Shown here piece by piece: positions 43,510-47,568 of a stretch of DNA of 52,875 bases. A program made the translations under genes and the position numbers. The notes under the pieces are model-generated. The model did no database searches. It was not told the origin of the DNA and saw only the letters and a program-made list of their open reading frames with translations. This DNA comes from Pirellulaceae bacterium (lineage in GTDB: Bacteria; Planctomycetota; Planctomycetia; Pirellulales; Pirellulaceae): assembly GCA_030748485.1 (NCBI GenBank), contig JASMLW010000544.1:1-52875 (forward strand), in the 5' to 3' direction. How positions within the stretch are numbered: the first letter of the stretch is position 1; every line of letters starts with the position of its first letter.

Positions 43510-45183
43510 TTATTGCCGCAGTTTCTTGTAGCGGAATCGGCGTGGCGCATCGGCGGAGATTCCCAGCCGTTCGCGCCGTTGCTGCTCGTACGTCTGGTAA
43601 TTCCCCTCGCACCAATGGACGTAGGCGTCTCCTTCGAAGGCCAGCACATGGGTGGCGATGCGGTCCAGGAACCAGCGGTCGTGACTGGTCACCACGACAC
43701 ACCCGGCGTAGTTCAGAATCGCTTCCTCCAGAGCTCGTAGCGTGTCGACATCGAGATCATTGGTCGGCTCGTCCAAGAGCAGGACATTGGAGCCGCGGCG
43801 GAGGAGCTTGGCCAAGTGGACCCGGTTTCGCTCGCCGCCGGACAATTCGCCGACTTTCTTTTCCTGATCGACGCCGCGAAAGTTGAACCGGGAGACGTAG
43901 GCCCGCGAGTTGATTTTGCGGCCGCCCATTTCCAAATGCTCGTAGCCGCCCGATATCTCCTCGTAGACCGTCTTCTCGGCGGCCAACGCGTCGCGGGTCT
44001 GATCGACGTAGCCGAGTTCCACGGTCTCGCCGACCCGCAGGCCGCCCGAGTCGGGCGCGTCCTGACCGGTCAGCATGCGAAACAGCGTCGTCTTGCCGGC
44101 TCCGTTGGGGCCGATCACGGCGACGATGCCGCCCGGAGGCAAACGAAAATTCAAGTTCTCCATCAACTGATTGTCGCCGAACCCCTTGTTCAAACCCTCC
44201 GCTTCGATCACGAGATCGCCAAGCGTCTTGCCCGGCGGGATCTGGATTTCGAATTCGTCCGGTCGCTCCTCGAATCCCGCCGAAGCCAATTGTTGGTAGG
44301 CCTTGAGCCGCGCTTTACTCTTGGCTTGCCGGGCGCGGGGAGCCATCCGGATCCAATCGAGCTCCCGTTCGAGCGTCTTTTGCCGAGCCGCGCTGGAACG
44401 TTCTTCCCGCGCCAGCCGCTGTTGCTTCTGCTCAAGCCACGAGCTGTAGTTGCCCTCCCACGGGATGCCCTCGCCGCGATCGAGTTCGAGAATCCAACCG
44501 GCCGCATTGTCCAGAAAGTAACGGTCGTGAGTCACCGCGACCACCGTGCCAGGATAGCTCGACAAGTGTCGCTCGAGCCAGGCGACGCTGTCCGCATCGA
44601 GATGGTTGGTCGGTTCGTCGAGCAGCAACAGGTCCGGCTGTTCGAGCAACAACTTGCACAACGCCACTCGACGCCGCTCGCCGCCCGACAACGTGGCGAC
44701 TTCCGCTTCCCGCGGCGGCAAGTTCATGACGTCGAAGGCAATCTCGATTTCCCGATCGAGCTCCCAAGTGTTGGTCGCTTCGATTTGGTCCTGTAGGCGA
44801 GCCATCTCGTCGCACAGCTTCTGCATCTGGTCGTCGTCCATCGGCTCGGCTAACGCCTCGCTGATCTCGTTGTAACGAACAACTAACTGGCGTCGCGACT
44901 GGACCGCTTCCTCGACATTGCCCCAGACATTCTTGTCGGGATTCAGTTCGGGCTCTTGGGCGAGAAAGCCTCGAGTGAATCCATCGGTCAGCCGCGCGTC
45001 GCCGTCGAAGTCGTCATCCAACCCCGCCATGATCCGCAACAGCGTGCTCTTGCCCGCCCCGTTACGGCCCAGCACACCGATCTTTGCGCCTGGATAAAAC
45101 GCCAGCCAAATATCTTTCAGCACCTCGCGCTGTCCGCGCTTTTTAGTGAGGTCGGCGATTGTGAAGATGTACTGCTTGCCCAT
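43510..45183 (-). CDS. ettA: Energy-dependent translational throttle protein (ABC-F)
   Basis: Soluble ABC-F protein that binds the ribosomal E site and gates elongation by energy state. Two ABC domains: Walker [14 protein letters not shown] and [13 protein letters not shown]; signatures [16 protein letters not shown] and [16 protein letters not shown]; Walker [13 protein letters not shown] and [12 protein letters not shown]. The inter-domain linker ([20 protein letters not shown]) and the second half match the EttA group. 557 residues, as usual. A -10 box lies upstream at 45251-45256. Confidence 0.95.
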
Positions 45184-45250
45184 ACCTGCGAAGTGGTTAA
45201 GCCACTCCCCGTGCGTTCGTCCAAAGTCTCAAGACGACGAAGAAACGAAG

Positions 45251-45256
45251 ATTATA
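45251..45256 (-). promoter_or_regulatory. -10 hexamer for ettA
   Basis: TATAAT on the - strand lies 68 bp before the ettA ATG and just downstream of the terminator at 45299-45332. This places ettA in its own transcription unit. The -35 region is poor. Confidence 0.5.
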
Positions 45257-45298
45257 GGTGGCTGGAAGCAATCGCTGCACCCGTCGTGTCGCGACGAC

Positions 45299-45332
45299 AA
45301 AAAAAGGCCCGCCGCTGGGAACGACGGACCTT
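45299..45332 (-). terminator. Intrinsic terminator upstream of ettA
   Basis: An 11-bp stem (AAGGTCCGTCG with CGGCGGGCCTT, two G-U pairs), a 7-base loop and seven T on the - strand (plus-strand A at 45299-45305). It stops whatever is transcribed toward ettA from 45340-45580. Confidence 0.8.
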
Positions 45333-45472
45333 GGAGGTGCGCAGATGCCATGTCGCCTGGGTGTGTGCAGGGCGAGCGGGTGAGGATGCTCGAGCCCAAA
45401 CGGACGATGGCGGAGTGAGGTTTGCGGCGCTGGGTGCTGGCCGCACTTAGGGGATCGACGCCGCCCATCTGC
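45299..45472 (-). ncRNA. Candidate structured small RNA B, ending in a terminator
   Basis: On the - strand nested helices can be drawn: an outer 7-bp stem GCAGATG (45466-45472) with CATCTGC (45341-45347), an inner CGAC/GTCG pair, a hairpin closed by TGCGGC/GCCGCA (45423-45445) and another at 45370-45397 (GGGC plus GAGC pairs with a 2-base bulge). It ends in an intrinsic terminator at 45332-45299. There is no protein frame of quality. The family is unknown; it does not show the SRP, RNase P or tmRNA signatures I know. Confidence 0.4.
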
Positions 45473-45580
45473 TTCAGCCACGTTTTTCGTCATCCGACGA
45501 ATAACCGTATCAACCGCTAGTCTTCGTCCACTCTTCGCATATTGTCTGCGGGGGCCAAGTGGCGACGCGCGGAAGACAAT

Positions 45581-45625
45581 AAAAAAAGCGAGCGTACGTT
45601 TCCTGGAAGAGAAACGCATGCTCGC
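45581..45625 (-). terminator. Intrinsic terminator downstream of guaA
   Basis: A 15-bp stem with one mismatch and one wobble (GCGAGCATGCGTTTC with GAAACGTACGCTCGC), an 8-base loop and seven T on the - strand. It lies about 265 bp after the guaA stop. Confidence 0.88.
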
Positions 45626-45842
45626 TTGCCTCAAAAGGATCGAAATCCTTTACGCGTTGTGCAGGGCGCCCAACCCCGCAGGAGGCAGTGTTTCCAACCG
45701 GACAAGGAGAATCACCACCCACCGCAATAATCGATCGGCACGGGAGATTGAGAACAACCACGTTTTTCGGCACGCCCCGAAAACTTCGCTGAGGTTGCCC
45801 AACTTAGCACGTCGCCTCAATCTCGCCCTTCGCTCCGCGAAG
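45581..45842 (-). ncRNA. Candidate structured small RNA A or structured guaA 3' UTR
   Basis: Downstream of guaA on the - strand come a CTTCGC-GGA-GCGAAG hairpin (45842-45828), a 9-bp perfect stem GAGATTGAG/CTCAATCTC (45824-45816 with 45752-45744) enclosing a GTTTTCGG/CCGAAAAAC hairpin (45784-45762), then further short hairpins and a strong terminator at 45625-45581. It may be an independent RNA or the guaA tail. A weak TTGGTT / TGAATC pair precedes it near 45875-45852. Confidence 0.4.
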
Positions 45843-45889
45843 ATGATTCACACGCCTCAGCGAATGAAACCAACGTCTTCGAGCTACCC

Positions 45890-47476
45890 CTATTCCCACT
45901 CGATGGTCGCTGGCGGCTTGCTGCTGATATCGTAGACGACTCGGTTCACGCCGCGGACTTCGTTGATGATGCGAGTCGAGATCCGCGCCAACAGGTCATA
46001 CGGCAGGCGACTCCAATCGGCCGTCATGAAGTCGTCGGTGTCCACGCTGCGAATGGCAATCGCCGGCTCGTACGTTCGGCAGTCACCCATCACGCCGACA
46101 CTCTGCACAGGCAGCAGCACGGCGAAAACCTGCGATGTCTGGCGATAAAGATCCGCCTCTTTAATCTCGTTAATCAATATGTCGTCAGCTTCGCGGAGCA
46201 CATCCAACCGCTCACGCGTCACCTCGCCCAGGCAGCGGACAGCCAATCCCGGGCCGGGGAACGGATGACGCCACACCAGATCCTCGGGCAACCCCAACTC
46301 GATTCCCAACCGCCGCACTTCGTCCTTGAACAAGTCTCGCAGCGGCTCGATCAACTCGAATCCCAGTTCAGCCGGCAAGCCGCCGACGTTGTGGTGAGTC
46401 TTGATGGTGTCCGCGGGCCCGTCGACGGCCGCTCCGCTTTCAATGACATCCGGGTAGAGCGTGCCTTGGGCGAGGAATTTTGCGTTCGAAATTCCTTCCG
46501 CCTCCGCGCGGAAACAGTCGATGAACGCATGGCCAATTCGCTGTCGCTTTTCCTGAGGATCGGTAACGCCCGCCAACGTGTTGAGAAACAACTCCTCGCC
46601 GTCAACGACGTGGAGGTCGGTCCGAAAATGATCGGTGAACTCACGCACGACCGTATCCTGTTCGCTCTTGCGCAGTAGACCGTTGTTGACCAGGATGCAG
46701 GAGAGCTGATCGCCGATCGCTCGATACAACAAAGCCGCTGTCACTGACGAATCAACGCCGCCGGACAATCCGCAGATCACACGAGCGTCACCAACCCGCT
46801 CGCGAATGGCGGCGATCGTCTGAGCCGCGAAGTCGCCCAGCTTCCATGCGCCGACGCACTGGCAAACTGAGATGAGGAAGTTTCGCAGCAACTGGCCTCC
46901 CGCCGGCGTGTGTGTCACCTCGGGATGAAACTGCAGCCCGTACACGGGGAGCTCGTGGTGCTTGACCGCCGCCACGGGGCAGGTGTCGGTGGCCGCCAAC
47001 GGTACGAACTGTTCGGAGACTTTCGGGAGTTGATCGCCGTGGCTCATCCAAACCTGCGTCTCGTCCGGCAGCCCGGCGAATAGTTCATTCTCCGCCGATA
47101 CTCGGCAAACGGCCCGTCCGAACTCACGAGTCGGAGTGCTGCCCACCTGTTCACCGAGCGCCTCACAAGCTAACTGCATGCCGTAGCAAATCCCGAGCAC
47201 GGGAATTCCCAAACGAAAAATGGCTGGATCGCACTGCGGCGCGCCTTCCGCGTAAACGCTGGCTGGTCCGCCGGAAAGGATGATCCCTTTCGGTTGCAGC
47301 TCGCTGATCCGCTCGGCGGTCAAATCGTGGCGAACGATTTCGCAATAGACGTTTTGCTCGCGAACGCGGCGAGCGATGAGTTGGGCGTACTGCGATCCGA
47401 AGTCGAGCACCAGGACTCGCTCGTCGCTCACCAACGCGGCAGGTGGGACCTGTTGAGGAGTGGTTGAATTCGTCAT
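45890..47476 (-). CDS. guaA: GMP synthase (glutamine-hydrolysing)
   Basis: Aminates XMP to GMP using glutamine and ATP. The amidotransferase half has [15 protein letters not shown] with the catalytic Cys and a later His/Glu pair in QFHPEVTHT. The ATP-pyrophosphatase half begins [15 protein letters not shown]. The C-terminal dimerisation domain ends [10 protein letters not shown], the canonical end. Start at the ATG with GGAGG eight bases upstream; length 528. Leader hairpins lie upstream. Confidence 0.95.
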
Positions 47477-47499
47477 CCTGCTCACCTCCGTGTTGGGCG

Positions 47500-47568
47500 C
47501 TGCGAGTTGACCCCGAAACGCAGAAGTCCCGCCGGCGAAAGGACGGGACTAGAGAAAGGAAAATTCTA
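47500..47568 (-). promoter_or_regulatory. Structured guaA leader with -10 box
   Basis: On the - strand TAGAAT (47568-47563) is a likely -10. The transcript would then begin near 47556 with two adjacent hairpins, AGTCCCG/CGGGACT (47550-47525) and CTGCG/CGCAG (47523-47500), before the ribosome site of guaA. Neither hairpin is followed by a T-run. It might regulate translation or mRNA stability; no known riboswitch family matches by eye. Confidence 0.35.

Follow-up and report, generated by a model that had tools for sequence, protein, structure and literature searches.

A structured noncoding RNA is encoded on the minus strand between guaA and ettA in a 52,875-nt contig of a Pirellulaceae bacterium (the whole stretch of DNA analysed here, referred to as the window), and homologues occupy the same locus in relatives; their helices covary, and both a 5′ domain and the terminator are conserved. 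The reading that we favour, with somewhat better than even confidence, is that this gene, u2, would be transcribed independently and yield a small RNA of about 190 nt, belonging to an undescribed family and acting in trans through redundant C-rich sites, as LhrC does in Listeria. In the window, the guaA–ettA gap spans 706 nt and the RNA lies 113 nt upstream of the ettA start on the ettA strand (Table 1). The features common to the homologues are the 5′ domain, a long hairpin with an apical CGAGC/GCUCG stem and a CCCYGC element, and a terminator with a UCCC-type loop.

Table 1. Features of the guaA–ettA region, in window coordinates
Feature	Position	Strand	Basis or remark
ettA (ABC-F translational throttle)	43510..45183	-	NCBIfam equivalog; neighbour
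TATAAT, likely ettA -10 box	45251..45256	-	by eye; downstream of the RNA's terminator
Candidate RNA stretch as first given	45299-45472	-	174 nt
RNA gene u2, about 191 nt	45299..45489	-	5′ profile HMM and covariance model R2
Intrinsic terminator, UUCCCA loop and T run, covarying stem	45299..45332	-	fold test and homologue comparison
P2 long hairpin GCCAU...AUGGC with inner helix	45347..45411	-	covarying
Unpaired CCCUGC adjoining apical stem	45367..45372	-	CCCYGC-type in 27/30
Apical hairpin CGAGC-AUCCUCACCC-GCUCG	45373..45392	-	near-invariant stem, C-rich loop
Unpaired linker AACCTCACTCC	45412..45422	-	CCTCAC-type in several relatives
P1 hairpin TGCGGC/GCCGCA	45423..45445	-	weak; small hairpin here in part of the relatives only
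Conserved 5′ domain CGAAAAACGTGGCTG...CGATC	45453..45489	-	near-fixed spacing in relatives
u1, tandem copy; 5′ domain kept, P2 apical hairpin missing, own unrelated terminator	45581..45770	-	5′ HMM
Terminator between u1 and u2	45586..45627	-	arms 45586-45602 and 45611-45627; z -4.85
guaA (GMP synthase)	45890..47485	-	NCBIfam equivalog; neighbour

A blastn search with u2 and its flank (291 bases) against 60 genomes gave no match outside the genome of origin, suggesting a species-specific stretch. This suggestion was ruled out by a comparison of motifs and structures; blastn is blind to the homologues because they share too little sequence identity. Sequences upstream of ettA were compared between the window and 45 loci of relatives. 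Many of these loci have guaA ahead of ettA, as in the window, and in several the gap contains an opposite-strand noncoding element having motifs in common with the window's minus strand. An alignment of 12 to 15 sequences contained a near-invariant CGAGC...GCTCGCCC, a 5′ GAAAA..TGG.TG motif, a CGAT block and the terminator. A covariance model of 13 sequences, the window included (R1), matched 46 of the 149 genomes of the family at E ≤ 0.01, with 32 of these matches reaching at least 45 bits; the RNA is thus not universal, being hit in about a third of the family's genomes.

For the covariation count, the 32 strong R1 matches were aligned, giving 30 distinct sequences and 28 pairs (L139 and L008 were excluded from alignment A2 and L139 from A4; the sequences of the duplicate rows L006 and L008 each entered the count a single time). 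Standard pairs occupied 91.5% of cells in the 30 sequences, compared with 70.7% in shuffled alignments and 34–41% for slid structures, in an alignment that was fitted to the model structure, so that the figures lean towards it, and whose relatives are not independent, several coming from one genus. Double changes were observed at 24 of the 28 pairs (198 cells vs. 61 in shuffles), the covariation score was 0.644 vs. 0.087–0.144 for slid structures, and none of 500 shuffles reached any of the five observed values. Because the gap to the slid controls is large, alignment fitting is unlikely to explain the covariation. The check proposed in the first-pass annotation, i.e., a covariance model on homologous intergenic regions, therefore returned strong covariation, which supports its claim that the stretch encodes a structured noncoding RNA that ends in its own terminator and is separate from guaA. 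A held-out model built from 29 relatives without the window (R2) found positions 45411–45297 (minus strand) with 60.9 bits and E = 6e-17, the next best match in the window scoring 6.6 bits, and this was the sole match at E ≤ 0.001 in the window's own 8.7 Mb genome. On the strength of its recovery by a model built without it, u2 is assigned to the new family.

The single sequence, taken by itself, would leave the finding open, because the terminator-free fold resembles that of shuffled sequences and Rfam is silent. The whole 174 nt stretch folds with z = −2.80, a value owed entirely to the terminator, since positions 45334–45472 alone give only z = −1.05 (27 of 200 shuffles fold as well) and the nested helices are thus within chance from one sequence; with a longer 5′ flank included, the fold z was −0.52. 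The terminator itself consists of a 13-bp stem (45332–45304, minus strand) around a UUCCCAG loop, followed by a T run, with z = −4.92 and none of 200 shuffles as good, confirming the strong stem and T run described from the sequence. The preceding terminator placed at 45581, which was said to isolate the stretch from guaA, is equally borne out and parts the RNA from that gene.

The nested helices described in the same annotation fared unevenly. The second of the inner hairpins matches the conserved P2 and, like the terminator, stands, whereas neither of the other two helices is conserved. The outer 7-bp stem (GCAGATG/CATCTGC) can form in the window but pairs in 32 of 81 cells in 13 relatives, and in these relatives the first inner hairpin pairs in 21 of 68; the pairing rates of both are close to those of the slid controls of the covariation test. 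P1 is an alternative hairpin, with z = −3.1 in the window and a mean z of −1.3 over 21 sequences. The 5′ limit, previously set at 45472, also had to be moved, in that the gene reaches approximately 17–20 nt further, to about 45489, and its true 5′ end probably lies within a few nt upstream of that position. This revision comes from a profile HMM of the 5′ domain (GAAAA..TGG.TG..CGAT) in 21 relatives, made without u1 and u2, which had exactly two significant matches in the window, namely u2 (45488–45432, E = 5e-5) and u1 (45769–45727, 1e-4). The GAAAA..CGAT domain could not be recognised at six loci (L163, L165, L166, L168, L170 and L174), where the RNA may be shorter or have a different start.

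The second of these HMM matches lies in a unit that we read as a decayed tandem copy of the RNA gene. The 8.7 Mb genome has just two occurrences of the 12-mer CGAAAAACGTGG, one in u1 and one in u2, 280 nt apart; a shift of 294 separates two occurrences of CGCCCTGCACA, and one of about 282 the terminators of the two units. In local alignments of u1 with u2 under two scorings, only 7 and 8 of 1000 shuffled pairs scored better. Neither R1 nor R2 matched u1, because the apical hairpin is missing: reading from the sequence, TTTGGG[...]CGCCCTGCACA in u2 faces GTTGGGCGCCCTGCACA in u1. A blastn search with u1 gave short matches in 13 of 60 genomes (its own included), mostly on an intergenic repeat on the 5′ side of the query. 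Positions 45810–45850 (minus strand), just downstream of guaA, are part of a short intergenic repeat, CTTCGCGGAGCGAAGGGCGA, of which other genomes of the order contain many copies. The string TTCG-N8-CGAAAAACGTGG was also considered as an operator and rejected; its one-mismatch matches, in 83 of 396 genomes, are scattered and thus give no sign of a conserved operator.

When the 396 genomes of the order were searched with R2, 52 were matched at E ≤ 0.001. The 19 matches of at least 45 bits all fell in the window's own family, and those outside it, being weak (at most 37.7 bits), were not accepted. This family is probably Pirellulaceae, because the row of L006 (Pirellulaceae bacterium Prado166) is identical to that of L155, which is in the same family group. 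Among the best 30 homologues, 13 of which are R1 genomes chosen near ettA, both guaA and ettA are nearby in 22, only ettA in three, only guaA in three, and neither in two; outside the R1 set, 15 of 17 homologues lie beside guaA and/or ettA, as found by a model blind to genes. Of the 28 placed homologues, 27 have the RNA on the opposite strand from guaA and ettA; the sole exception is the window, whose genome is a draft in 649 contigs. These counts of position and orientation are not independent, as several matches come from the same genus. Opposite-strand placement is treated here as a position rather than as a defining feature of the family. Two strong homologues (L167 and L169) lie away from guaA and ettA within the stretch compared. 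No RNA is present in the gap in L002, L012 and L013, where gaps such as those of 1 and 75 nt are too short to hold it.

That the RNA forms its own transcription unit, as first suggested, draws partial support from the flipped orientation and from the conservation of both the 5′ start and the terminator. A promoter scan called no consensus promoter for u2, nor did it call the TATAAT assigned by eye to ettA; hexamers resembling the latter are similarly spaced in some relatives. In many relatives, a TRTAYS-like hexamer was seen by eye ahead of the conserved 5′ end, with a −35 box not definable. At three loci (L121, L125 and L131), the space between the RNA and ettA contains a further opposite-strand unit (e.g., L125:3335-3455:+), which has a terminator of its own and a G-rich start (GTGGGGAGG...CTGGGGGGA); by blastn, this unit near ettA was found in only four of the 149 genomes, one of them weakly.

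The placement data bear directly on the readings in which the element serves one of its neighbours or is itself a message. In the window, where the RNA ends in a terminator shortly before ettA on the same strand, a cis-acting attenuator or leader of ettA would be a natural interpretation, which was rejected as highly improbable: the homologues cannot be ettA leaders because 27 of 28 are on the opposite strand, so that the same-strand upstream placement fails, and a TATAAT stands between the RNA terminator and ettA. Cis service to guaA, as an antisense RNA or convergent terminator, would agree with the many relatives in which the RNA terminator lies convergently 5–100 nt from the guaA stop; however, the distance can be as large as 1026 nt, the window has the RNA the other way round, and two of the best 30 homologues have neither gene nearby, making this reading very improbable. 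A short mRNA for a small protein is scarcely credible. Open reading frames of 79 to 145 aa do run open through the stretch, but the four gap-overlapping ORFs tested had no match in Pfam or NCBIfam, in keeping with the earlier statement that the stretch has no coding frame; moreover, no closed ORF fits inside u2, the longest ORF in the RNA homologues of 21 relatives is 0 to 47 aa, and the stems covary. A functionless terminator with a neutral spacer, to which the shuffle-like fold of the terminator-free sequence would lend itself, is hardly conceivable in view of the covariation, the conserved 5′ domain and the held-out detection, and is refuted unless the alignment is wrong throughout.

A more serious competitor, though still an unlikely one, is a structured RNA that acts by binding a protein or the ribosome, in a housekeeping or sponge role, rather than by pairing with mRNAs. 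The near-invariant apical stem and the CCCYGC bulge resemble a recognition site, and the guaA leader, the sole pairing candidate tested, was negative: the C-rich loops paired with it no better than with shuffled leaders in 15 genomes (mean z = −0.13, −0.22 and −0.32). Against this reading, the loops vary in length and sequence and yet stay C-rich and G-poor, which fits pairing better, and the RNA is not 6S RNA, for which (RF00013) no match up to E = 10 was found in 45000–45900, despite a similar length. The best 6S RNA candidate of the genome, G000:C66:7495-7719 (L082), scored 32.6 bits, below the Rfam cut-off of 46.4. In most of the 15 guaA leaders of relatives (L200–L214), a TATAAT is followed, often after a GGTTTCC-like start, by a GC-rich hairpin and a T run right before the start codon, an arrangement that is attenuator-like; in the window's guaA leader (about 47486–47555, minus strand), the T run is poor.

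We infer that the RNA acts in trans, because only the RNA itself persists between genomes; only the RNA seems to be required, since the window has it in the reverse orientation and two homologues are away from both genes. That it works by base pairing is less certain than trans action. The apical loop is 49% C and 7% G in the 30 sequences, with CCTC, CCC or TCC in 27 of them; the bulge is 67% C (CCCYGC-type in the proportion given in Table 1) and the terminator loop 58% C. CCC is present in the terminator loop of 15 of 18 family terminators vs. 5 of 40 other terminators of the scanned loci, a split made by a simple motif, so that a few of the five may be family members. The family thus has the LhrC-like trait of C-rich unpaired sites in a hairpin loop, a single strand and a terminator loop. 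With start codons picked mechanically, Shine–Dalgarno-like cores precede 13 of 33 window ORFs vs. 3 of 33 in control stretches, and such sites therefore exist as possible targets. Pairing of redundant sites with mRNAs is proposed because of these C-rich loops and Shine–Dalgarno-like cores, together with LhrC and the rhizobial anti-Shine–Dalgarno loops. In the favoured reading, separate transcription would yield a small RNA of about 190 nt from its own gene, which would present several unpaired C-rich, G-poor sites (the apical loop, the CCCYGC bulge, the linker and the UCCC-type terminator loop); these sites may pair with the G-rich ribosome-binding sites of mRNAs, and such pairing would lower the translation of several mRNAs. 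A bolder version, which is possible and which we hold only tentatively, is that it is a core regulatory RNA of Pirellulaceae that would address many mRNAs at their ribosome-binding sites through multiple C-rich sites, and whose gene, because the RNA acts in trans, would be free to flip and duplicate in place. If true, this would be its founding description; for the phylum as a whole, hardly any small RNA was found to have been described.

The cell biology of planctomycetes is unusual, and the literature searched contained next to nothing on small RNAs of this group. One study reportedly described 224 candidate structured RNAs. No Rfam 15 family matched at the gathering cut-off in the window or in the loci of 12 relatives, and at the RNA position in eight loci no match was obtained up to E = 3. 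In the parts consulted of the literature on planctomycete small RNAs and guaA/ettA intergenic RNAs (including PMC9029176 and PMC2864571), no description of this RNA was found. The Rhodopirellula-1 motif, which has no Rfam accession, is given in the part consulted of its source as occurring in Proteobacteria and Planctomycetes and is graded there as a doubtful RNA that is probably cis-regulatory (PMC2864571); it is thus also listed for Planctomycetes, and the features described for it differ from those of the present RNA, although the two might still be one and the same. The family, which matches no Rfam 15 family, is presented as new and undescribed.

Listeria, Staphylococcus and rhizobia all provide known cases of regulation through redundant C-rich sites. 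With its strong covariation, its repeated C-rich sites and a genomic address that is fixed in many genera, the present family provides a concrete RNA to study in cultivable carriers, and such a study would test for a separate origin of this type of regulation in this phylum. Rfam ar14 scored a sub-threshold 16.2 bits against the RNA (cut-off 58.8). The rhizobial small RNAs SmelA075 and SmelA099 are described, in the sections consulted, as having CCUCCUCCC loops with an anti-Shine–Dalgarno character (PMC3927594); the present RNA likewise appears trans-encoded with anti-Shine–Dalgarno-like C-rich loops, which are variable here, whereas the rhizobial loops are perfect repeats. Among the closest known systems is also LhrC of Listeria monocytogenes, for which the portion consulted reports three UCCC sites, including one in the terminator loop, that pair with G-rich ribosome-binding sites (PMC4132741). 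Both RNAs have CU-rich UCCC-type sites in a stem-loop, a single strand and the terminator loop, and both occur in more than one copy, although the RNA described here belongs to another phylum, its genome has only one intact copy, and the likeness described is one of features.
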